Shown here piece by piece: positions 1,673 to 9,448 of a stretch of DNA of 64,000 nucleotides. This DNA is from Calothrix sp. MO_192.B10. Its GTDB lineage: Bacteria; Cyanobacteriota; Cyanobacteriia; Cyanobacteriales; Nostocaceae. The stretch is taken from contig JASJDS010000073.1 of the NCBI GenBank assembly GCA_030065055.1, forward strand, positions 1 through 64,000, read 5' to 3'. Below the pieces are notes generated by a model. It was given only the letters and a program-made list of their open reading frames with translations, did no database searches and was not told where the DNA came from. Both the position numbers and the translations under genes were made by a program. How positions within the stretch are numbered: position 1 is the stretch's first letter; each line of letters starts with the position of its first letter.

Positions 1673-2260
1673 CTATTCTGGCTCAACCCAGTTAATCCCT
1701 AAACGCCTAAAGTCTCTATCAAATGAAACTACACTTTCACCTGTGTGACGTGCTATTTCTGCCAGATAAGCATCAAGGAAATCAACATTTGCATTAGCCA
1801 TCAGACTGAGTGCTGCGGAAACTTGTTGTATTTCATCACAGCTAATACCATCAGATACAATTAACGGTAACAAAACTTCAGCTATTTGGGTGCGGGAATA
1901 TCGATAGAATGAACTCAATACCCAAACGATTTCTGCAACTACAATTGGTGAAAGTTTAAGGTTGACTTCTCCCTGTTCAGCCCTTTGTATTAATCAGGAC
2001 TTACGCAAGCCTTATTTGTCATTGCGAGCGAAACGTAGTGTAGCGAAGCAATCCCAGTATTTTGGCGATTACGTCGCTGTCGTTTGTCCTGACGGACACG
2101 CTGCGCGGTAAGCGGAGCTATGCCGTAGGCTTTACGTAATGACATAATCACGTTACTTTTGCGTAAGTCCTATTAATCTTAAAGCACGTTCTGCTAATTC
2201 AGGAGGTTCTCCTGTGAGAAAACGCGGTAAAACATTAGCATCTACCCAAAAATCTGTCAT
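1673..2260 (-). pseudogene. vapC (PIN-domain toxin) split by a MITE
   Basis: The N terminus (from ATG 2260: MTDFWVDANVLPRFLTGEPP) is a standard PIN start with the first catalytic Asp. It is separated by a 176-bp mobile element from the rest of the domain (VVAEIVWVLSSFYRYSRTQI up to SFDRDFRRLGINWVEPE at 1673). Removing the element and one copy of its 7-bp target duplication joins the two parts in frame into a full-length VapC of about 135 residues. The start overlaps the antitoxin stop by one base (TAATG). The 81-residue remainder could be started internally at 1918 but lacks the first catalytic Asp and is probably inactive. Confidence 0.85.
1989..2178. mobile_element. 176-bp MITE with 7-bp target site duplication
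   Basis: The element covers 1996-2171. Its ends are 13-bp perfect inverted repeats (AGGACTTACGCAA and TTGCGTAAGTCCT). The flanks carry the direct duplication ATTAATC at 1989-1995 and 2172-2178. It has no coding capacity and interrupts a vapC gene. A related element lies inside the glycosyltransferase gene at 27437-27528, and a matching right end is seen at 54001-54013. The transposase acting in trans is not in this window. Confidence 0.9.
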
Positions 2261-2499
2261 TATTGTTCGTTAATTATTCCTTGAGCTAAAGATTCGCCCA
2301 CTATTGTCCGAATTTCTTCTTTTCCTGGATAGGGTTTCGTTGCTTTTAATACACCGTAGAATTCGCTAAGTCTTTTTTGGGGAATTGTATCAATTTTTTG
2401 AGTACGGAATTTGATAAATTCAATAAAATCAGCTACAAGTTGAAATTGTTCTTCACTGAGGTTGTCTATTTCTTGCTTAATACTTTCTTTTGTTTTCAT
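2260..2499 (-). CDS. Antitoxin (VapB-like) of the MITE-interrupted VapC
   Basis: A 79-residue protein with an N-terminal helical region (ESIKQEIDNLSEEQFQLVAD) and a polar C-terminal tail, of a kind common in cyanobacterial VapB-type antitoxins. Its stop codon overlaps the vapC start by one base, showing translational coupling. Because the partner toxin is split by a MITE, this antitoxin is probably now an orphan, free to act only as an autoregulator or to cross-neutralise related toxins. A remnant of a WD40-protein tail lies just upstream (2571-2634). Confidence 0.75.
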   Translation of the reverse strand: MKTKESIKQEIDNLSEEQFQLVADFIEFIKFRTQKIDTIPQKRLSEFYGVLKATKPYPGKEEIRTIVGESLAQGIINEQ

Positions 2500-2570
2500 T
2501 GTGATTTGGGCTAGTCGCGTTTTTCGATTGTGTGAATATTTTTATTTTACATTTCCCCGTCTTTGACTGC

Positions 2571-2634
2571 GCTATCATGCTTTGAGGGTAGAAATTTCAG
2601 CATTGGTTAAGCCTTTGACACCTGTGATATAATA
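2571..2634 (-). pseudogene. Orphan 3' tail of a NACHT-WD40 gene (copy D)
   Basis: In one frame this reads ITGVKGLTNAEISTLKA followed by two stops, matching the last residues of the intact NACHT-WD40 protein (ITGVKGLNETEIATLKALGAV). Copy C at 3901-3990 shares the same derived sequence GCATGATAGCGC at the point where the intact gene has GCATTGGGCGC, so copies C and D descend from one damaged ancestor. No WD40 repeats precede it. Confidence 0.7.
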
Positions 2635-2682
2635 AGCCTGTTTGAAATAGAAAAGCCGCGATTTAAAATAAAAAAGTATCGA

Positions 2683-3099
2683 ATGGCGAGAGATGCTTTT
2701 CATCAACAAGTAAAAAATGCGTTAATTAAAGATGGTTGGATAATTACAAACGACCCCTTAATAATTCGCATTAGCGAAGCAATCAAAGTGCAAATAGATT
2801 TAGCCGCAGAAAGTGCGATTGCAGCAGAACGAGATACGGAAAAAATAGCAGTTGAAATCAAAAGTTTTATCTCAGGCTCTGATATTAACGAATTTCATAC
2901 AGCACTCGGACAATATCTTAATTACTGCCAAGCCTTGGAAGAAAATGAACCAGAACGAATTGTATATTTAGCAATTCCATCGGAAACTTACTTGGATTTT
3001 TTTCAGCTACCTTTTGTCCAACGTGCAATTCAGCGTTATCAGGTGAAATTGATAATTTATGACCCCAAGCAGGAGGAAATACAACAATGGATAAAATAG
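2683..3099 (+). CDS. xisH: XisH family protein
   Basis: At 138 residues, with ARDAFHQQVKNALIKDGW at the start and the nuclease-like core KIAVEIKSFI, this matches XisH, first described as one of the factors controlling excision of the fdxN element in heterocyst-forming Anabaena. The family has a PD-(D/E)XK-like fold (EIK is the visible ExK). Many cyanobacteria carry extra xisH/xisI pairs away from any excised element, where their role is unknown; this looks like such a pair. It overlaps xisI by 13 bp. It is the only gene pair on the + strand in the toxin-antitoxin island. Confidence 0.9.
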   Translation: MARDAFHQQVKNALIKDGWIITNDPLIIRISEAIKVQIDLAAESAIAAERDTEKIAVEIKSFISGSDINEFHTALGQYLNYCQALEENEPERIVYLAIPSETYLDFFQLPFVQRAIQRYQVKLIIYDPKQEEIQQWIK

Positions 3100-3422
3100 A
3101 TTTATATCGACAGTATATTAAACAAATTTTAACAGAACATGCACAAATAAGTACAGACAAAGATACAGTCAAACCGCAATTAATTTTTGATAATGAGAAT
3201 GACCACTATCAATTAGCTTATATTGGCTGGCAAGGAGAAAAGCGTGTATTTGGTCCGGTGATGCATTTTGATATTATAAATGGGAAAATATGGATTCAAT
3301 ATAACGGCACGGAGGAACTTGTTGCGGATAGATTGGTTGAGTTGGGTGTGCCATCTTCGGAGATTGTAATTGGTTTTTATTCACCATTTAAACGTCAATT
3401 TACCGCTTATGCCGTGGAGTAG
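3087..3422 (+). CDS. xisI: XisI family protein
   Basis: This 111-residue protein is the usual XisI partner. Visible family features are DLYRQYIKQILTEHA at the start, WQGEKRVFGPVMHFDI in the middle and the closing segment SEIVIGFYSPFKRQFTAYAV. It starts inside the end of xisH (13-bp overlap), so the two are co-translated. XisI is required with XisH for fdxN element excision in Anabaena; no recombinase gene xisF or element border is visible here. Length is normal and the frame is intact. Confidence 0.92.
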   Translation: MDKIDLYRQYIKQILTEHAQISTDKDTVKPQLIFDNENDHYQLAYIGWQGEKRVFGPVMHFDIINGKIWIQYNGTEELVADRLVELGVPSSEIVIGFYSPFKRQFTAYAVE

Positions 3423-3439
3423 AATTTTCGACCTTATTA

Positions 3440-3592
3440 CTAGGCAAACCTTAGCACCCATTCAGTTTCTAAAATTACAGTATCTGGAATAAAAATCGTT
3501 TGTGTTTGGAAAATCTCTAGGCTTTTTTGATATTGAACTTCATCATCTTGAGTTAATAAACGCACAATTATGTTCGTATCAACTGCCACCAT
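3440..3592 (-). pseudogene. Truncated vapC (N-terminal 50 codons of a PIN toxin)
   Basis: From the ATG at 3592 the product reads MVAVDTNIIVRLLTQDDEVQ and continues to PDTVILETEWVLRFA, where a TAG stop ends it at 50 residues. This is the N-terminal third of a PIN-domain RNase, with the first two conserved acidic residues (VDTN and LETEW) but not the second half of the active site. It overlaps the preceding AbrB-type antitoxin gene by 14 bp, the normal VapBC arrangement. The toxin should be inactive. Confidence 0.8.
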
Positions 3593-3842
3593 GCCACGAT
3601 TCCTCTACACCTTGACGGATAGCATCATCCATATCAGCTAAGGATTTTGGCTTGCCTTGATATTTTAAGCAACCTGCGACTTCATTTAATGTAGTTTCTG
3701 GAAACGGTTTTCTCGGTTTGAGAAGAATACCATCGCCTGTATCAATTACAACTAGTTCCTGACCAACTTCCCAGCCATAAGATTTACGTAATTGTTCGGG
3801 AATAATTACTTGTCCTTCTTTGGATACTTTTGTGATTTCCAT
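3579..3842 (-). CDS. AbrB/MazE-type antitoxin
   Basis: The first 45 residues form a SpoVT/AbrB swapped-hairpin DNA-binding domain (KVSKEGQVIIPEQLRKSYGW, then GDGILLKPRKPF). The C-terminal half is a flexible toxin-binding tail of 87 residues in all. It is the antitoxin half of a VapBC-type module whose VapC is truncated. Such proteins bind their own promoter, alone or with toxin. A NACHT-WD40 tail remnant lies about 60 bp upstream. Confidence 0.85.
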   Translation of the reverse strand: MEITKVSKEGQVIIPEQLRKSYGWEVGQELVVIDTGDGILLKPRKPFPETTLNEVAGCLKYQGKPKSLADMDDAIRQGVEESWHGGS

Positions 3843-3900
3843 AATTTAGAAATTTTATTTATCTAGGCTTAATAATTTTATCTTTTCTCTTCTTCCACCG

Positions 3901-3990
3901 CGCTATCATGCTTTGAGAGTGGCAATTTCGGCATCGGTTAAACCCTTCACACCAGTAATATTCATTCGTTCATAGGGGCGATACTCTTTC
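3901..3990 (-). pseudogene. Orphan 3' tail of a NACHT-WD40 gene (copy C)
   Basis: This reads TLKEYRPYERMNITGVKGL then TDAEIATLKA and two stops. The match to the end of the intact neighbour (PYERMNITGVKGLNETEIAT) is close at both protein and DNA level. It lies between the MazF-like toxin gene and the AbrB antitoxin gene, in the same orientation, with no start codon or WD40 repeats before it. Confidence 0.75.
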
Positions 3991-4012
3991 AGAGTTGCTA
4001 CGCGATATACTA

Positions 4013-4360
4013 TTACGATAATTGAAAGGCTTTAATCATAATTTCATTCAATTTTTGTATGTGCTTAGTTGTTAGCTGACCCAAGCGTCTTATTACCAAA
4101 AGACGATTTATGGTAGCTAGTCTCGTGACTCTCACTTTAGAAGAAATGCGTAATCCTGTTGTGGCAAAATCTTCATCGGAGTCTAGTATTGCGAATTCTT
4201 CCGATGTCAAATTGTTGACATTTTGAGATGAGATAAAGCAAAGAGTAATTTCATTTTTTGCTGAATCAACCCACAGTATCACCGCAGGGCGTAATTTTGT
4301 TTGACTTAAATCGGTGAAGGGGAATTGGGTTAAAACAATATCACCTTTACTCAAGCTCAT
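4013..4360 (-). CDS. MazF/PemK-family endoribonuclease toxin
   Basis: This 115-residue protein has the MazF/PemK signature: SKGDIVLTQFPFTDLSQTKL at the start (residues 4-23), RPAVIL and the later beta-strand segment GLRISSKVRVTRLATI. Members cut mRNA at short sequences. The gene is intact and of normal length. Its start codon overlaps the upstream antitoxin stop by one base. This and the RelE/ParE pair are the modules in the island with no visible damage. Confidence 0.87.
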   Translation of the reverse strand: MSLSKGDIVLTQFPFTDLSQTKLRPAVILWVDSAKNEITLCFISSQNVNNLTSEEFAILDSDEDFATTGLRISSKVRVTRLATINRLLVIRRLGQLTTKHIQKLNEIMIKAFQLS

Positions 4361-4566
4361 TAAACTGGTTCTCCATCTTCGCTGGTATAAATATCGGGTT
4401 CATCAGATAAAAAATCCAAAGCTAGACCTTTTTCTGCGAGGTGCATTAATTCCAGGGTAGAAGGATAGTTGACATCGCTAAATAATTTTTTTTCGAGTAG
4501 GGCTTGTTCCGTTGCAGATAGCGAACGAATAATTTGGACTAAAGTATCAACTAATTGAGTATTCAC
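4360..4566 (-). CDS. Antitoxin paired with the MazF-like toxin
   Basis: A 68-residue acidic protein (NTQLVDTLVQIIRSLSATEQ, then a tail rich in Asp and Glu) directly upstream of, and overlapping by one base, the MazF-like toxin. It has no evident AbrB or ribbon-helix-helix motif; the LSATEQALLEKKL segment is common in small cyanobacterial antitoxins. Function is assigned by position and size. A WD40 tail remnant (4617-4698) sits just upstream. Confidence 0.75.
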   Translation of the reverse strand: MNTQLVDTLVQIIRSLSATEQALLEKKLFSDVNYPSTLELMHLAEKGLALDFLSDEPDIYTSEDGEPV

Positions 4567-4616
4567 AGCTTTATTATTTTCGGATTTCCTAGTATTTTAA
4601 TTCTACATTTCCCTGT

Positions 4617-4698
4617 CTTCCACCGCACCTAATGCTGTGAGGGTGGTTATTTCCGCATCGTTTCAGCCTTGGACACCTGTGATGTTCATATATTCGTA
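4617..4698 (-). pseudogene. Orphan 3' tail of a NACHT-WD40 gene (copy B), joined to vapC
   Basis: The frame reads YEYMNITGVQG, a TGA stop, then NDAEITTLTALGAVEDREM and a natural stop. It is homologous to the last 30 residues of the intact NACHT-WD40 protein. Its 5' end is fused to the first codons of a vapC gene (MQFLLDTNI). The joint falls in TACGAA, present in both parents, so it looks like a deletion between short homologies. Confidence 0.75.
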
Positions 4699-4942
4699 TC
4701 GAGCAGGAATTGCATTATAATGTTTCTCTTCTGTCTAAAAGGGGTTGTTCTCTAGTTGGCATAAAATCATCAGAAAAGAGGTTTAAGCTATCAAATAAGG
4801 TTTGCCAAGGATTGTCTTTGGAAATTAGAACCACAGCATTACCTACTTTTTTGATGTAAACTTCAGATCCTTGCATCTGGAATTATTTGGGTAAAATTAC
4901 TGTTTGGCGATCGCCGTTTGTTATTAATTGAGCAGTATTCAT
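4689..4942 (-). pseudogene. vapB antitoxin with nonsense mutation plus first codons of vapC
   Basis: From ATG 4942 the frame reads MNTAQLITNGDRQTVILPK, a TAA stop at codon 20, then FQMQGSEVYIKKVGNAVVLI, typical of the AbrB-like VapB family, to a natural stop at 4715. The stop overlaps an ATG that opens a vapC (MQFLLDTNI), but after nine codons the sequence switches to a WD40-gene tail. Both halves of the module are therefore dead. Confidence 0.75.
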
Positions 4943-4987
4943 CTTTGAGCCTCCCACTTTTTGGACATAGATATTGCATTTGCTCTC

Positions 4988-7900
4988 CTATTCTCCATTA
5001 TCCACTGCGCCCAATGCTTTGAGGGTGGCAATTTCCGTTTCATTTAAACCCTTCACACCTGTGATGTTCATACGTTCGTAGGGTTTGTCACTTTTCAGGG
5101 TTTTGAGACACTCGCCTTTTTTAATATCCCAAAGTTTTATTGTTTCATCAGCACTACCACTGGCAAGGGTATTACCTTGAGGACTAAAAGCAACTGAATG
5201 TACCCAACTGGTGTGTCCCTGCAAGGTGTGGAGGCATTCCCCCGTGGATATATCCCATATTTTAACGCCAGTATCACCACCGGCACTGGCAAAGGTGTAA
5301 CCGTCTGGGCTGAATGCTACTGAATCTACCCAACTGGTGTGTCCCTGCAAAGTTTGGCGGCATTCACCCGTGGATATATCCCATAGTTTAACACTGGAAT
5401 CACTACTGCCACTGGCAAGGGTGTGACCGTCCGGACTGAAAGTCACCGAAGTTATCCCATGGGTATGTCCTTGGAAGGTTTGGCGACATTCACCCGTGGA
5501 CAGATCCCATAGTTTGACAATAGCATCCTCACTGCCACTGGCAAGGGTGTAGCCATCCGGACTAAATGCTACTGAACGTATCCTACTGGTATGTCCCTGG
5601 AAGGTTTGGCGACATTTACCTGTAGACAGATCCCATAGTTTGACAATAGCATCTTCACTGCCACTGGCAAGGGTGTGACCATCTGGACTAAATGCTAGTG
5701 AATATACCCTACTGCTATGTCCCTGCAAGGTATAGCGACATTCTCCTGTGGATATATCCCAAATTTTAATACTGGTATCTTCACTGCCACTGGCAAGGGT
5801 TTGACCTTGAGGACTGAATGCTACTGAACGTATGCGACTGGTATGTCCCTGGAAGGTTTGGCGGCATTTACCCGTGGACAGATCCCAAATTTTAATACTG
5901 GTATCTTCACTGCCACTGGCAAGGATGTGACCATCGGGATTGAATGCTACTGAACGTATGCGACTGGTATGTCCCTGGAAGGTTTGGCGATATTCACCTG
6001 TGGGCATATTCCAAAGCTTGATGCTGGCATCACGACTGCCACTAGCAAGCATGTGACCATCAGGACTAAATGCCACTGAATGCAACCCACTGGTATGCCC
6101 TTGCAAAGTTTGGTAGCATTCACCCGTGGATATATTCCAAAGCTGGATGCTGCAATCATCACCACCACTGGCAAGGATATGACCGTCAGGACGGAATGCT
6201 ACTGAACATACCTTACTGGTATGTCCTTGCAAAGTTTGGCGGCATTCACCCGTGGATATATCCCAGAGTTTGACACTTCCATCCTCACCACCACTGGCAA
6301 GGATATGACCGTCAGGACTGAATGCTACTGAACATACCTTACTGGTATGTCCTTGCAAAGTTTGGCGGCATTCACCCGTGGATATATCCCAGAGTTTGAC
6401 ACTTCCATCCTCACTACCACTGGCAAGGGTGTCACCTTCAGGGCTGAATACCACTGAATGTACCCTACTGGTATGTCCTTGCAAAGTTTGGCGGCATTCA
6501 CCCGTGGATATATCCCAGAGTTTGACACTTCCATCCTCACCACCACTGGCAAGGGTGTCACCTCCAGGGCTGAATACCACTGAATGTACCCAACTGGTAT
6601 GTCCTTGCAAAGTTTGGCGGCATTCACCCGTGGATATATCCCAGAGTTTGACACTTCCATCCTCACCGCAGCTGGCAAGGGTGTCACCTTTAGGGCTGAA
6701 TACCACTGAATGTACTTCACCCAAGTGTCCTTGACAGTCCAAAAGTTTTTTACCACTTGCAGTTTTCCACAGGCAAACTACACCATAATGATCCCCTGTA
6801 GCCAAAAGGAAACCATCGGGACTAAATGCCACTGAAAAAACAGTGCCCAAAACTTTTGTAAAAACACAATCAGCCAAATTCGCCCCAGCAAAATTCACAT
6901 CCTGCAAACTCGCACTACTAAAATCCGCCCCCTTAATCACCACACCACTAAAATCTCTCTTCTCCAACGCATCCTTATCAAGCTTCACGGCTAAATTTGC
7001 CGTATTCCCGCCAACATAACCCACCTCATTTTCACTTTTCCCCCGCGTTTCCTCAATCGCATCCATAAGGGATTGGTTGTCCCCCACCATTCCCATCATC
7101 AAATCCATCACTGCTTTCGTCAGTGGTGCTTTGCCAAAACTCTCGCGCAATAACTCCAGGGACTCCCTGACAAAACCCTTTAAACCTGCAATGGGAACAA
7201 TATCCCCAGCCGCATCTACTTGTCTTCTAAAATAAGCAGACCAAGTGTAATCCTCTGATGTAACACTTTCATCTAAATTAGACTGTTCTTGCGCTACCTC
7301 TGTAAAATCACTAGCTAACACTCCCAATTCAGCCGCAAATTTATACGCCACAAAAAACTCCAACAGCGAACGATGCGCCGGAGTATAATCACCAACAGCA
7401 TTGCGGATGAGCATTGTCTGCCCCATCATGTCATAATGCCAGTGGTCTAAATCCTTCTCTTCCTGCACCACAGAACCAAACAATCGCCGAATTCTATCGG
7501 GAAATAGCCGATAATTGATACTCATCTGGTCATTTGACAGCATCTCCCAGGACAACTCGCACAAAAAGTACAGCTTATCTGCCAAGGAAGTAAAGGTACG
7601 TTCCGCTTTTATATCCCGTTCCATCTTCCGCCGCACCGCATACAGATAAACCCGCGACATATCCACCGGCTTACCCGCTTCAATATCTGGCAATGCTTCC
7701 AAAATTAAATCAGTCATCACTGGACGACGTGCCAAGTCCAACAGTTGGGGATTGCCCATCACTTCCTCAACTGTGGTAGGCTCTGCTTGGAATGATAAAA
7801 CCTGCCTAATTTGCTCGTCGTTAAATTTCTCCAACTCCAGCACTTCAAACTGGGGTGTTTCTCCCGTCAAATTAGCGGTAGATGCCTGTAACTCTGCATT

Positions 7901-9448
7901 CAACAAAGCCCGTCTTTCCTTTGCTTCGGGGAAATGCTCTGTGCGACAGGTTAAAATCACCTTGGCACCAGGAACCACTACCTTCGCCAGTTCCCAAAAG
8001 TTATTTATCATCTCTTGGCGGTTAACCCGTGCTGCCATTTCATCAAAACCATCGAATATCAGCAACAGTTTCCCCATGCGGTTGAGTTGTTCAAAAGCTG
8101 AATAACCGGGTATGGGAATTTCATATTGGCGAAAGAAAAACTCAGAAAACAGGGATTCCACACTCACCGCTTTGGCATAGTCCCGCAGAGGAATCACCAA
8201 AGGTAAACGGGGAAGTTGCACACCGCGTCTTTGGGCATCTCGATAACGTTGCAGCGCCACCCAAGCATAATGCAGAGCGAACCAAGTTTTACCCGTACCA
8301 AATTCCCCTAAAATCGAGATATGCTCTTTGGTAGAGTCATCTAACCACAGGTCGATATAACCCTCAATCCAGCCATCTTCCTCACCATAATGACTAACTG
8401 CTATTTGCTGCTTAGTAACTGGATCTATCTCTTCCTTAGTACAAGCAAGGGGCACATACTTAGTATCAATTTTGCGATGTTTGATTTCTGCTTCTAACCA
8501 GTCGAGATAGCTGCTAAAGTCAGCATCCTGGACAAGAAGTTCATCAAATGTATAGCACCCCAGGAAATCATTTTCCTCCTTCTCAACCTCATTCCGTGCA
8601 GCCTTGGCAATACGGCGATTCGTTACCAGCCATCCTTCATCTGTGCGTTGCTGTTCCACTGACTGGCGCAAAGCCATCACATCCCCAAGTCCCGCTTCAC
8701 CTTCAATACCCCGCACGAGAATTCTGTCATAGCGATTGCGTCTTACCGGAATATTAATAATCCACTCAAAATAACTGTCTTCCCATACCTGATGCTTTTC
8801 AAATCTATATCCCAAGGTTTCAAACCAGCCGCGCATTTCCTGGGCAAGAGCTATAGCGCGACACTGATTTTCCCTGGATGTTTGAGCTTCTGGCAATGCA
8901 GAATCATCCTGTGCTGCCAGCCGTGCCATTTCTGTCCGAATTCCTTCTAGGGTGGGCAACCTCTCAAGATTTTCTTGAATAGTTACAATCCTTCTATGCA
9001 AGGAAGTAATTTGTTGGCTCATTAGTGTATCTGCTGGGTTGCGAGTGCGTTTAGCAACTTCCGCAAATACAATATAAAACGCCACAATTTCTCGCTTGAT
9101 GTCAATTCCCAAACTTTTAACTTCATCCCCCAAGGCATAAGCCTCCACAAAATCATCCACCTCGGAGAGTAAAATTGAGGGGTTGTTATGGTCAAATGCT
9201 TGACGAAATGCCCTTTTGATTGATTCTTGCTGGAATAATTGCAAAAAAGGCTTCGGTTTCCCAATACCGTACTCTACCAAAGCATAGGCATAAACCCCAC
9301 TAAAATCAGCCGGTGGATGTTCGGGTTCGAGGTTAAATTTTTTTAATAATTGGATGATAACTTGATTACGCTGCAACTTGTCCTTTACAATTGGACTAGC
9401 AATACCAGCGATCGCTTCAATTAGTTTACCAAGAGGAATCAGTGACAC
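4988..9448 (-). CDS. NACHT-WD40 STAND-type protein (NLR-like)
   Basis: A 1486-residue signal-transduction ATPase. Residues 1-190 form a helical region. Residues about 195-310 resemble a restriction-endonuclease (Mrr-like) fold (RILVRGIEGEAGLGDVMALR, GWLVTNRRIAKAARNE), though the usual ExK catalytic pair is not evident. The NACHT domain follows: Walker A GEFGTGKT (381-388), Walker B LLLIFDGFDEM (461-471) and TCRTEHF (500-506). A short pentapeptide-like stretch (GADFSSASLQDVNFAGANL, about 840-860) precedes 14 WD40 repeats of 42 residues (about 868-1455), enough for two seven-bladed propellers. A 30-residue tail closes it. Translation starts at GTG. Such STAND proteins oligomerise on ligand binding; several bacterial relatives act in phage defence, but the ligand and output here are unknown. 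Confidence 0.9.
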   Translation of the reverse strand: MSLIPLGKLIEAIAGIASPIVKDKLQRNQVIIQLLKKFNLEPEHPPADFSGVYAYALVEYGIGKPKPFLQLFQQESIKRAFRQAFDHNNPSILLSEVDDFVEAYALGDEVKSLGIDIKREIVAFYIVFAEVAKRTRNPADTLMSQQITSLHRRIVTIQENLERLPTLEGIRTEMARLAAQDDSALPEAQTSRENQCRAIALAQEMRGWFETLGYRFEKHQVWEDSYFEWIINIPVRRNRYDRILVRGIEGEAGLGDVMALRQSVEQQRTDEGWLVTNRRIAKAARNEVEKEENDFLGCYTFDELLVQDADFSSYLDWLEAEIKHRKIDTKYVPLACTKEEIDPVTKQQIAVSHYGEEDGWIEGYIDLWLDDSTKEHISILGEFGTGKTWFALHYAWVALQRYRDAQRRGVQLPRLPLVIPLRDYAKAVSVESLFSEFFFRQYEIPIPGYSAFEQLNRMGKLLLIFDGFDEMAARVNRQEMINNFWELAKVVVPGAKVILTCRTEHFPEAKERRALLNAELQASTANLTGETPQFEVLELEKFNDEQIRQVLSFQAEPTTVEEVMGNPQLLDLARRPVMTDLILEALPDIEAGKPVDMSRVYLYAVRRKMERDIKAERTFTSLADKLYFLCELSWEMLSNDQMSINYRLFPDRIRRLFGSVVQEEKDLDHWHYDMMGQTMLIRNAVGDYTPAHRSLLEFFVAYKFAAELGVLASDFTEVAQEQSNLDESVTSEDYTWSAYFRRQVDAAGDIVPIAGLKGFVRESLELLRESFGKAPLTKAVMDLMMGMVGDNQSLMDAIEETRGKSENEVGYVGGNTANLAVKLDKDALEKRDFSGVVIKGADFSSASLQDVNFAGANLADCVFTKVLGTVFSVAFSPDGFLLATGDHYGVVCLWKTASGKKLLDCQGHLGEVHSVVFSPKGDTLASCGEDGSVKLWDISTGECRQTLQGHTSWVHSVVFSPGGDTLASGGEDGSVKLWDISTGECRQTLQGHTSRVHSVVFSPEGDTLASGSEDGSVKLWDISTGECRQTLQGHTSKVCSVAFSPDGHILASGGEDGSVKLWDISTGECRQTLQGHTSKVCSVAFRPDGHILASGGDDCSIQLWNISTGECYQTLQGHTSGLHSVAFSPDGHMLASGSRDASIKLWNMPTGEYRQTFQGHTSRIRSVAFNPDGHILASGSEDTSIKIWDLSTGKCRQTFQGHTSRIRSVAFSPQGQTLASGSEDTSIKIWDISTGECRYTLQGHSSRVYSLAFSPDGHTLASGSEDAIVKLWDLSTGKCRQTFQGHTSRIRSVAFSPDGYTLASGSEDAIVKLWDLSTGECRQTFQGHTHGITSVTFSPDGHTLASGSSDSSVKLWDISTGECRQTLQGHTSWVDSVAFSPDGYTFASAGGDTGVKIWDISTGECLHTLQGHTSWVHSVAFSPQGNTLASGSADETIKLWDIKKGECLKTLKSDKPYERMNITGVKGLNETEIATLKALGAVDNGE
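5084..6853 (-). repeat. Array of 14 WD40-coding 126-bp repeats
   Basis: The DNA coding the C-terminal half of the NACHT-WD40 protein consists of 126-bp units. Units at about 6215-6715 (repeats 2 to 6 of the protein) are nearly identical at nucleotide level, for example the shared stretch coding VKLWDISTGECRQTLQGHT. Units at both ends are more diverged. This pattern points to recent duplication or gene conversion within the array. Confidence 0.9.

Follow-up and report, generated by a model that had tools for sequence, protein, structure and literature searches.

In some filamentous cyanobacteria, small toxin-antitoxin (TA) modules stand in rows behind a large, sensor-like NACHT-WD40 gene. Copies of the last ~100 bases of this gene, referred to here as tails, lie between the modules and appear to act as joints at which they are swapped within and between species. 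Judged by comparison of sequences, the tail is probably a recombination joint of ~100 bp that loads horizontally moving TA cassettes behind the gene. The cassettes belong to a shared pool that is transferred horizontally, their flanks switch at the tail, and orphan tails (copies detached from a gene body) lie downstream of the gene; together with the narrow zone in which orphans start and an error found in several genera, this makes the tail look like a recombination joint.

The arrangement was described in Calothrix sp. MO_192.B10 (assembly GCA_030065055.1, contig JASJDS010000073.1), in a stretch of 64,000 nucleotides that is called the window and whose position 1 is the end of the contig. 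Its features are as follows, starting from the intact gene.

4988 to 9448, minus strand: intact NNH5-NACHT-WD40 (STAND) gene, 1486 aa (open reading frame; Pfam NNH5 9.2e-52, 14 WD40 repeats)
4964 to 5083, minus strand: tail A, the real, attached gene end (nhmmer 100.7 bits)
4715 to 4876, minus strand: module 1, VapB/MazE-type antitoxin remnant, 53 aa, without a Pfam hit itself
4693 to 4715, minus strand: module 1, first codons of vapC (MQFLLDT), joining tail B at TACGAA (from the sequence)
4583 to 4699, minus strand: orphan tail B, with an in-frame TGA (nhmmer 98.5 bits)
4360 to 4566, minus strand: module 2, MazE-like antitoxin, 68 aa, named from its position before MazF at six loci
4013 to 4360, minus strand: module 2, MazF/PemK toxin, 115 aa, frame intact (Pfam PemK_toxin 1.3e-11)
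3863 to 3977, minus strand: orphan tail C (nhmmer 92.6 bits), with the error GCATGATAGCGC at 3911-3900
3579 to 3842, minus strand: module 3, AbrB/MazE-fold antitoxin, 87 aa (Pfam MazE_antitoxin 1.7e-10)
3440 to 3592, minus strand: module 3, VapC (PIN) cut to 50 aa (Pfam PIN 7.6e-6)
3087 to 3422, plus strand: xisI, opposite to the array (Pfam XisI 9.6e-45; relatives at loci L088, L092 and L094)
2683 to 3099, plus strand: xisH, opposite to the array (Pfam XisH 5.4e-57)
2526 to 2632, minus strand: orphan tail D (nhmmer 85.4 bits), with the error GCATGATAGCGC at 2580-2569
2260 to 2499, minus strand: module 4, DUF2281/VapB-like antitoxin, 79 aa, weak (DUF2281 0.033, TA_VapB 0.0053)
2172 to 2260, minus strand: module 4, N-terminal piece of VapC (PIN), by eye against the intact 134-aa copy of L088
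1996 to 2171, no strand assigned: interspersed repeat of 176 bp with inverted ends AGGACTTACGCAA / TTGCGTAAGTCCT, splitting the module 4 vapC
1673 to 1995, minus strand: module 4, C-terminal piece of VapC (PIN) (Pfam PIN 1.6e-7 on 1673-1918)

A preliminary description of this DNA held that the TA modules alternate with tails, of which A is attached to the gene, while B, C and D repeat its last ~20-30 codons without being joined to it. This was borne out, with nhmmer scores of 85-101 bits from a model partly built from these four tails themselves. Model-free alignment, which had been proposed there as a check, gave 79% identity between tails C and D over 87 nt and 75% between A and B over 97 nt. 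A search of the genome with the protein of tail A recovered C (E 1.9e-9), B (9.7e-7) and D (0.11); tail D is weak by protein and therefore rests on its DNA match. The xisH-side junction of tail D resembles, by eye, those in L092 and L094. The error common to C and D is present as described, and so is the run of vapC into tail B, which begins at TACGAA (4698-4693), inside the frame of a vapC whose start codon is at 4715-4713. The same junction is present in genome G002 (locus L068).

The module identities given earlier agree with Pfam for PemK/MazF, AbrB/MazE, the truncated PIN, XisH/XisI and the split PIN, and are weak for the module 4 antitoxin, whose Pfam (DUF2281) and NCBIfam (TA_VapB) scores both fall below the cut-off and whose DNA is 96.6% identical to the L088 copy. 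The module 1 region shares 84% DNA identity with L009 (4687-4961) and L077 (4687-5065); the L009 relative of its VapB reaches MazE_antitoxin at 4.2e-5 (23.8 bits, just under the cut-off of 24.7), and the intact L077 relative of its vapC begins MQFLLDTNTCIY and matches VapC families. The MazE-like antitoxin of module 2 has no family match in Pfam or NCBIfam. The module 3 VapC is 129 aa long in L059 and L099 versus 50 aa in the window, and the repeat at 1996-2171 has 43 matches in its own genome, itself counted, mostly partial. Between 1673 and 5090, frames are uncut in the MazEF and XisHI pairs alone, and three vapC toxins are cut. Across the cassettes, PemK/MazF, AbrB/MazE, PIN and ParE lie above the Pfam cut-off and PhdYefM and DUF2281 below it; a RelE-like gene and some antitoxins match known families in Pfam and NCBIfam only below cut-off. 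As small antitoxin-toxin operons, the modules would be classed as type II TA systems of known families, and only their arrangement and mode of movement are unusual.

When the same tail was sought in other genomes, as had been recommended, 110 loci were recovered, including arrays with TA cassettes. They hold 136 tails, 88 joined to a WD40 body and 48 orphan. Tolypothrix brevis and Calothrix/Brunnivagina elsteri CCALA 953 are examples of strains that bear arrays. The loci were picked via tail matches and not randomly, so every proportion given here applies to tail-bearing loci. The comparison of flanks took tails with scores of 45 bits or more, which come from 39 of the 110 loci, and the resulting pairs are not independent. 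Orphans from different genomes form 599 pairs. In 26 of these the left flank alone is shared, although 10 of the matches score just 70-101 and may rest on short repeats; in 25 the right flank alone is shared, and in 2 both are. Attached-orphan pairs (n = 896) have only the right flank in common in 42 cases and only the left in 1. L092 and L094 are 96.3% identical over 7.3 kb from 8 bp before the tail, with gene ends at 66-72%, and the tail-cassette block of L073 and L097 is 97.7% identical over 864 bp; in both pairs, a single tail-cassette block follows a real gene in one of the genomes and an orphan in the other. G002 is colinear with the window (87%) until the end of tail C, after which different modules follow. 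L102 and L103 have their downstream flank in common but carry different cassettes. Cassettes have the same leader after real genes and after orphan tails, and an attached tail, a cassette and an orphan tail form an element bounded by the gene end and its duplicate.

Across the tail, the identity of right-sharing pairs rises only in the last ~20 nt, and that of left-sharing pairs fades past about position 70. Given this profile, exchange may be concentrated close to the stop codon, as it would be at an integrase site. Site-specific integration, with the tail as attachment site, an integrase acting in trans and the cassettes as minimal elements that rebuild the 3' end of the gene, was weighed; e14 at icd and cis-mobilizable elements are parallels for elements of that kind. 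One-sided growth, a gene that stays whole and a tail of attachment-site size would suit it, as would the bias of the switch zone, which has no fixed point, to the 3' third of the tail, and the likeness at synonymous codons, which is 0.70 in the tail versus 0.58 in NACHT for genes with high-scoring tails and 0.62 versus 0.58 for other genes, a comparison that is partly circular because the groups were defined by tail score. However, the crossover place varies by eye, from the 5' edge of tail C (window and G002) to the 3' half (L068C and L092). Furthermore, no recombinase or integrase was recognised with Pfam and NCBIfam among the annotated cassette ORFs, which are a subset of the ORFs. Integration of this type is considered unlikely.

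The preliminary description had preferred descent from an array in which full-length NACHT-WD40 genes stood in tandem, with a TA module after each, and lost their bodies by later deletion. Deletions of this kind do occur, since a NACHT part is joined straight to a tail in L087 and a NACHT fragment lies ahead of a tail in L077. Tandem full-length genes exist in L075, L080, L082 and L083, where the tail is of a more distant type, and orphans in L090, L101 and L105 still include as much as ~100 nt from the final WD40 repeat. As the main cause, however, deletion of whole bodies was rejected on the 5' ends of the orphans, their polarity and the error lineage. Deletion predicts remnants of all lengths, but 48 of 48 orphans start inside one 133-nt zone (46 of 46 once L069, which a contig end truncates, and L147, which is probably a broken gene with its tail still attached, are set aside), whereas truncated attached bodies, up to 16 of 77 non-edge copies, are cut anywhere from 183 to 2562 nt. 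L092 and L102, which belong to these truncated copies, show body matches farther upstream. It also predicts orphans on either side of a surviving gene, but the 26 orphans of 15 array loci are all downstream and none is upstream, with an upstream view of less than 1.4 kb in 7 of these loci. In a sixteenth array locus, L124, an orphan follows one gene and precedes another by 120 nt, and in L147 a broken tail lies 970 nt ahead of body sequence. A second attached tail was found in none of the 15 array loci. Deletion would further be expected to leave orphans that resemble the gene beside them, but in the order of similarity to tail A, B comes 17th, C 18th and D 22nd of 26.

The error lineage leads to the same judgement. 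The complex error GCATGATAGCGC is present in 10 of 48 orphans versus 0 of 88 attached tails. In 217 genomes searched with at most one mismatch, 10 real matches (8 exact) were obtained versus 6 chance matches of a backward control; all ten fall in orphan tails of the existing set, in 6 genomes of 6 genera. The shared error is thus no local event, as it recurs across six genera and in orphans only. When genome contigs were scanned for the error pattern, 16 stretches matched; L150, L151 and L159 are cyanobacterial, and the remaining 13 were taken for chance matches. The earlier interpretation is upheld in part: body deletion is distinctly unlikely as the origin of the arrays, and repeated TA insertion at the 3' end of the gene, recreating the tail each time, which the preliminary description had named as its alternative, fits much better.

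Orphans sit behind a body or body fragment in 31 of 48 cases. The preliminary description had named tails far from any NACHT-WD40 or TA gene as the observation that would refute it, and this holds for part of the set: 9 of 48 orphans are isolated in this sense, lacking both a NACHT-WD40 body in the 6 kb upstream and any TA family of the pool (the only families sought) within 900 nt on either side, a count that includes the contig-end locus L069. In rows of at least two orphans, the last scores below the first in 6 of 7, a weak decay with distance. Pool TA genes, searched with queries from the arrays, lie within 1.5 kb behind 12 of 52 full-length genes, and the majority of genes lack a row. Orphan tails contain small inserts, which mark a repeat-rich setting. 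The string GTAGCRTCTC lies upstream of 4 of 48 orphans and is taken here to be of SDR5 type, a name that follows PMC4390886; some orphan ends may stem from an SDR5-type insertion into HIP1.

Transfer of the cassettes is indicated by their codons. Identical synonymous codons are more frequent in cassettes than in recA in 107 of 123 pairs (means 0.79 versus 0.57), and in 16 pairs recA is as alike or more so; these pairs are non-independent and exclude those with less than 60% amino-acid identity or fewer than 40 aligned codons, and recA was taken by motif for 22 of 23 loci, G022 being dropped. By best match per genome in 30 genomes, among the 42 MazF and 98 AbrB matches listed, a tail lies ahead of MazF in 6 of 7 cases at 85% identity or more and in 1 of 23 below 75%, and ahead of AbrB in 7 of 7 at 83% or more and in 4 of 23 below 81%. 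The tail has been captured by a few TA lineages, and G183 has a close MazEF (87.7%) without it. Carriage of the cassettes by phages was rejected, with no match in 50,697 phage records. Twelve plasmid records match, seven on tail-containing parts of the queries (H1, H7-H12) and five on MazF.

Many tail copies finish in GAAATGTAAAATTAAAA or a near-match directly ahead of the antitoxin gene, as would be expected if the tail carried a promoter or leader needed by the TA genes and were kept by selection for expression, with no role in recombination. However, promoter-like sites, scored by a sigma-70-like consensus only, number 11 in 2200-5200 of the window versus 9.8 (sd 3.0) in shuffles, reverse-oriented cassettes follow the tail too, and the tail is absent from most of the more distantly related MazEF and AbrB copies. 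A promoter role, which is very unlikely, was rejected for this lack of excess sites. That the tail is a small mobile repeat of its own (MITE- or REP-like) landing anywhere is highly unlikely, since, for all its nine isolated copies and the inserts in a repeat-rich setting, it has few copies (a search of 7.8 Mb at E values up to 10 gave 14 matches, of which 8 fall on frames above 800 aa), mostly sits behind bodies or fragments, and has flanks that recur on one side.

If the tail is a recombination joint, cassettes would pass from genome to genome within this cyanobacterial family, accompanied by a duplicate of the final ~100 bp of the NNH5-NACHT-WD40 gene, the travellers being MazEF, AbrB-VapC, Phd-VapC, VapBC, DUF2281-PIN, Tox-PL-2, RelE-like and XisHI pairs. 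Exchange within the tail would place a cassette directly behind the intact gene, whose C-terminus would thereby stay whole, or behind an existing orphan tail. A newcomer would leave the older cassette downstream behind a tail fragment, so that rows extend away from the gene. The far end of the newcomer would be joined crudely, at short homologies, at HIP1 sites (GCGATCGC) or with inserted small repeats, which would account for the cut toxin genes and the ragged 5' ends of orphans. The exchange would be homologous and of RecA type, with a homology-facilitated illegitimate second end, and the order of events would be as given. Neither excision circles nor ongoing exchange were observed. Homology-facilitated joining alone gives no account of the confinement of all orphan 5' ends to 133 nt.

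More tentatively, the 3' end of the STAND gene might be an integrase-free platform, a TA docking joint shared across Nostocales, where tail-closed circles or linear donors cross genera and re-dock at any tail. This would be integron-like shuffling by ordinary recombination, and addiction modules would tie the array to a putative immune gene. The benefit may be a harmless landing site for the TA modules and protection of the STAND gene from loss. Such a portable homology arm, docking without gene breakage, would give TA modules a concrete way to spread and accumulate in the chromosomes of cyanobacteria, and the tail with its error lineage offers a testable marker of TA traffic among genera.

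In the open-licence literature, no description of TA rows behind a STAND gene with tail joints was found in the titles and abstract beginnings of the matches listed. Integrons hold a row of small cassettes, TA pairs included, with short repeats between them and one end anchored, and the present arrays share these traits. In contrast to integrons, the repeat here is the 3' end of a coding sequence, with copies that stand ahead of the cassettes, and no integrase was recognised in the annotated cassettes. In the immunity arrays of the Vibrio cholerae T6SS, newcomers load by a conserved part and older genes shift downstream; the authors propose homology-facilitated illegitimate recombination and remark on the likeness to integrons (PMC5361080). 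Those arrays consist of effector-immunity pairs of a secretion system, with orphan immunity genes in place of repeated gene tails, and their breakpoints were at no specific site. In layout, the present arrays resemble the orphan cdiA-CT/cdiI and rhs-CT/rhsI modules, in which a full-length gene is followed by detached modules, many headed by a stretch of the host gene, some modules are common to several strains, and in one case homology runs exactly from block to block (Poole 2011, PMC3150448). Here too, the full-length gene comes first and tail-headed modules follow downstream, with L124 as the exception. The VENN block, however, lies inside the CDI/Rhs gene and each module carries an alternative toxic end of the host protein, whereas here the block is the last ~30 codons, the modules are separate TA operons past the stop codon, and the host, a STAND protein of NACHT-WD40 type, retains its tail unchanged. 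The principle of the CDI/Rhs orphan array would thereby be extended from toxin delivery genes to STAND genes.

TA modules were said in the preliminary description to alternate with orphan tails of a NACHT-WD40 gene, and this was confirmed, as three body-less tails (B, C, and D) were located behind the gene, whose attached end is tail A. A tail comprises the final ~30 codons of this gene. The array is composed as follows:

9448-4988, minus strand: intact NNH5-NACHT-WD40 gene, 1486 aa (ORF and Pfam)
4699-4583, minus strand: orphan tail B, body-less copy downstream of the gene
3977-3863, minus strand: orphan tail C, body-less copy downstream of the gene
2683-3422, reversed relative to the array: XisH-XisI pair
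2632-2526, minus strand: orphan tail D, body-less copy downstream of the gene

The first module between or behind these tails consists of a VapB remnant and the opening codons of a vapC. Further modules are MazE-like and MazF genes as a pair, AbrB with a truncated PIN gene, and the reversed XisHI pair; in the last, a weakly DUF2281-like antitoxin is accompanied by a PIN gene that a 176-bp interspersed repeat divides in two. The derived error reported for two tails, GCATGATAGCGC, is indeed common to C and D, and the reported vapC-tail junction is present, with tail B starting inside vapC at TACGAA. The 176-bp repeat (1996-2171, 13-bp inverted ends) interrupts the vapC of module 4 and has 43 matches in the same genome including this copy, mostly partial. 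Towards the contig end, 298-1400 contains further TA genes without tails, a ParE-type toxin with a partner and a PIN-like fragment (by eye).

Tail-cassette arrays, in which TA or XisHI modules stand beside tails, are real and occur across many genera of a single family. The Calothrix genome of the window has 14 tail matches at E up to 10, 8 of them on frames >800 aa. Tail matches were found in 30 of 39 genomes and, with DNA model R1, in 201 of the 217 genomes of the family, this genome included in both counts. The genomes studied include Richelia sp. SL_2_1 and the Nostocales Tolypothrix brevis GSE-NOS-MK-07-07A and Calothrix (now Brunnivagina) elsteri CCALA 953. The 110 loci examined, which were picked by tail matches and not at random, contain 136 tails at E <1e-4, of which 88 are joined to a WD40 body and 48 are orphan; among the latter, L069 is interrupted by a contig end, and L147 is probably the attached tail of a broken gene. 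In L075, L080, L082, and L083, full-length NACHT/WD40 genes stand in tandem and have a tail that is related but of another type (VTGLTEAQK). A CRISPR-looking repeat array, translated VSVPLRGKGSLK, lies behind the orphan tail of L056, downstream of 7206 (by eye only).

The arrays are polar. In 16 loci with both kinds of tail, 27 orphans follow the first attached tail downstream on its strand, with none preceding it. L124 is the exception among them, with an orphan also 120 nt ahead of the body sequence of a second gene; without it, 15 array loci have 26 orphans downstream and none upstream, the view upstream of the gene being at least 2.4 kb in 8 of the 15 and <1.4 kb in the other 7. The cassettes, which occupy the spaces between tails or follow them, form one pool whose order and combination vary by locus, with families named by Pfam/NCBIfam matches or by eye. 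MazEF recurs in six loci and AbrB, with or without VapC, in six; Phd-VapC, VapBC, DUF2281-like antitoxins with PIN genes, reversed RelE-like pairs, reversed VapC-Phd, and a Tox-PL-2 pair (Pfam 5e-29) also belong to it. Tox-PL-2, a papain-fold toxin, recurs with an unnamed partner behind tails in L009, L070, L076, and L094; the partner in L070 has no Pfam match. Reversed XisHI pairs are placed between tails in three arrays (window, L092, L094) and after the last tail in L088, a placement suggestive of TA-cassette-like behaviour. The second array of the window genome, L009, combines relatives of three window modules differently. With TAs from the arrays as queries, 12 of 52 full-length genes have pool genes no more than 1.5 kb behind them; seven of the 12 have orphan rows (window, L009, L068, L070, L073, L088, L091) and five do not (L099, L103, L104, L118, L127). 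On the upstream side, one of the 52 has a pool gene at up to 1.5 kb. L096 has two tails in a row and no pool TA; their spacer (7779-7853) resembles a repeat present several times behind the L089 tail (7723-7982). Two TA genes look chimeric by eye: an antitoxin in L102 (array-oriented 7946-8209) joins a DUF2281-like front to a VapB end, and a PIN toxin (L068:8059-8562) ends like the AbrB-linked VapC.

Flanks were compared between genomes over ~160 bp to the left and 180 bp to the right of tails of at least 45 bits in 39 of the 110 loci, with a match cut-off of 70 (shuffled right flanks reached at most 27 in 300 trials). Among orphan-orphan pairs, which are not independent, 26 shared only the left flank, 25 only the right, 2 both, and 546 neither; 10 of the 26 left-flank matches score just 70-101 and may rest on short repeats. 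Attached-orphan pairs, likewise not independent, shared only the right flank in 42 cases, only the left in 1, and neither in 853. From 8 bp before a tail onward, L092 matches L094 at 96.3% identity for 7.3 kb, yet this tail belongs to a gene in one locus and is an orphan in the second, and the gene ends are 66-72% alike; L073 and L097 present a similar case (97.7% over 864 bp). The window is colinear with genome G002 at 87% until the end of tail C and different beyond, and L102 and L103 have a common downstream flank (97.7% over 3.2 kb) with different cassettes. For several cassette types, a type-specific leader follows the tail and does not differ between attached and orphan tails (by eye and by score). 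Judged by mean identity along the tail, most switches appear to lie at tail positions ~60 to 95, close to the stop codon and not at one base.

Most likely, incoming [tail-cassette] DNA is loaded by recombination in the tail, behind either an intact gene or a tail that is already orphan. Its second end would close by illegitimate joining, which would often cut a toxin gene, and older cassettes would be left behind a tail fragment. Tail B lies in vapC after ~8 codons, and the orphans of L009 and L098 also lie in vapC, the latter at a HIP1 site. We infer that RecA dependence, circles, and a benefit may belong to this process.

Cassette genes were compared with recA in 123 gene pairs from different genomes (not independent; pairs with <60% amino-acid identity or <40 aligned codons left out), recA covering 22 of 23 loci with G022 dropped. 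Identical codons among conserved residues were more frequent in the cassette in 107 of 123 pairs (means 0.79 vs 0.57), and plain DNA identity was higher in 94 of 123. The extremes are L092/L094 (cassettes 99-100% vs recA 77.7%) and L073/L097 (98.8% vs 76.6%); the opposite case is Tox-PL-2 of G021 and G062, both of genus g20 (84.7% vs 93.1%). The derived error has 10 occurrences, spread over 6 of 217 genomes and 6 of 56 genera (backward control, 6 chance matches), in 10 of 48 orphan and 0 of 88 attached tails. Six of the 48 orphans, and none of the 88 attached tails, have a ~25-nt insert (GTTCACG.AGTG.GGCGCTA) at one point of the tail (array-oriented L073:6522, L077:8297, L088:10084, L105:1599, L107:5229, L107:6055). 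Orphan tails therefore have their own history. In likeness to tail A, window tails B, C, and D rank 17, 18, and 22 of 26; orphans rank 20 and 13 in L068, 9 and 11 in L094, and 1-6 in L009, L070, L088, L091, L096, L097, and L098. From this range of ranks, both import and local exchange of tails seem to occur.

An ancestral array of full-length genes with deleted bodies, as preferred in the preliminary description, was not upheld as the main cause. The 5' ends of 48 of 48 orphans lie in a zone from -101 to +32 nt relative to the PYE codons, whereas up to 16 of the 77 attached copies that are not at contig ends have bodies cut short at points scattered over 183-2562 nt (L092 and L102 have more body matches upstream). 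The background of body ends is ~0.6 per 100 nt vs 48 in 133 nt for orphans. Fusions of NACHT to tail by deletion, in L087 and probably L077, are exceptions. The shortness of orphans is left partly unexplained by tail-cassette loading. Several orphan 5' ends coincide with HIP1 (GCGATCGC), a sequence that excerpts of PMC4390886 tie to site-specific and illegitimate recombination.

In the best match of each of 30 genomes (of 42 MazF and 98 AbrB matches listed), a tail lies upstream of 6 of 7 MazF relatives of at least 85% identity and 1 of 23 below 75% (weak, 26 bits), and of 7 of 7 AbrB relatives of at least 83% (one weak, 24 bits) and 4 of 23 below 81%. G183 has a close MazEF with no tail. Therefore, these TA families exist without the tail, and a few lineages captured it and spread with it.

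The arrays, which simple gene-array decay does not explain, extend the orphan-array principle in a new form. They resemble the CDI/Rhs orphan arrays, as described in excerpts of PMC3150448, and the loading scheme here is close to one put forward for the immunity arrays of V. cholerae, as outlined in excerpts of PMC5361080.
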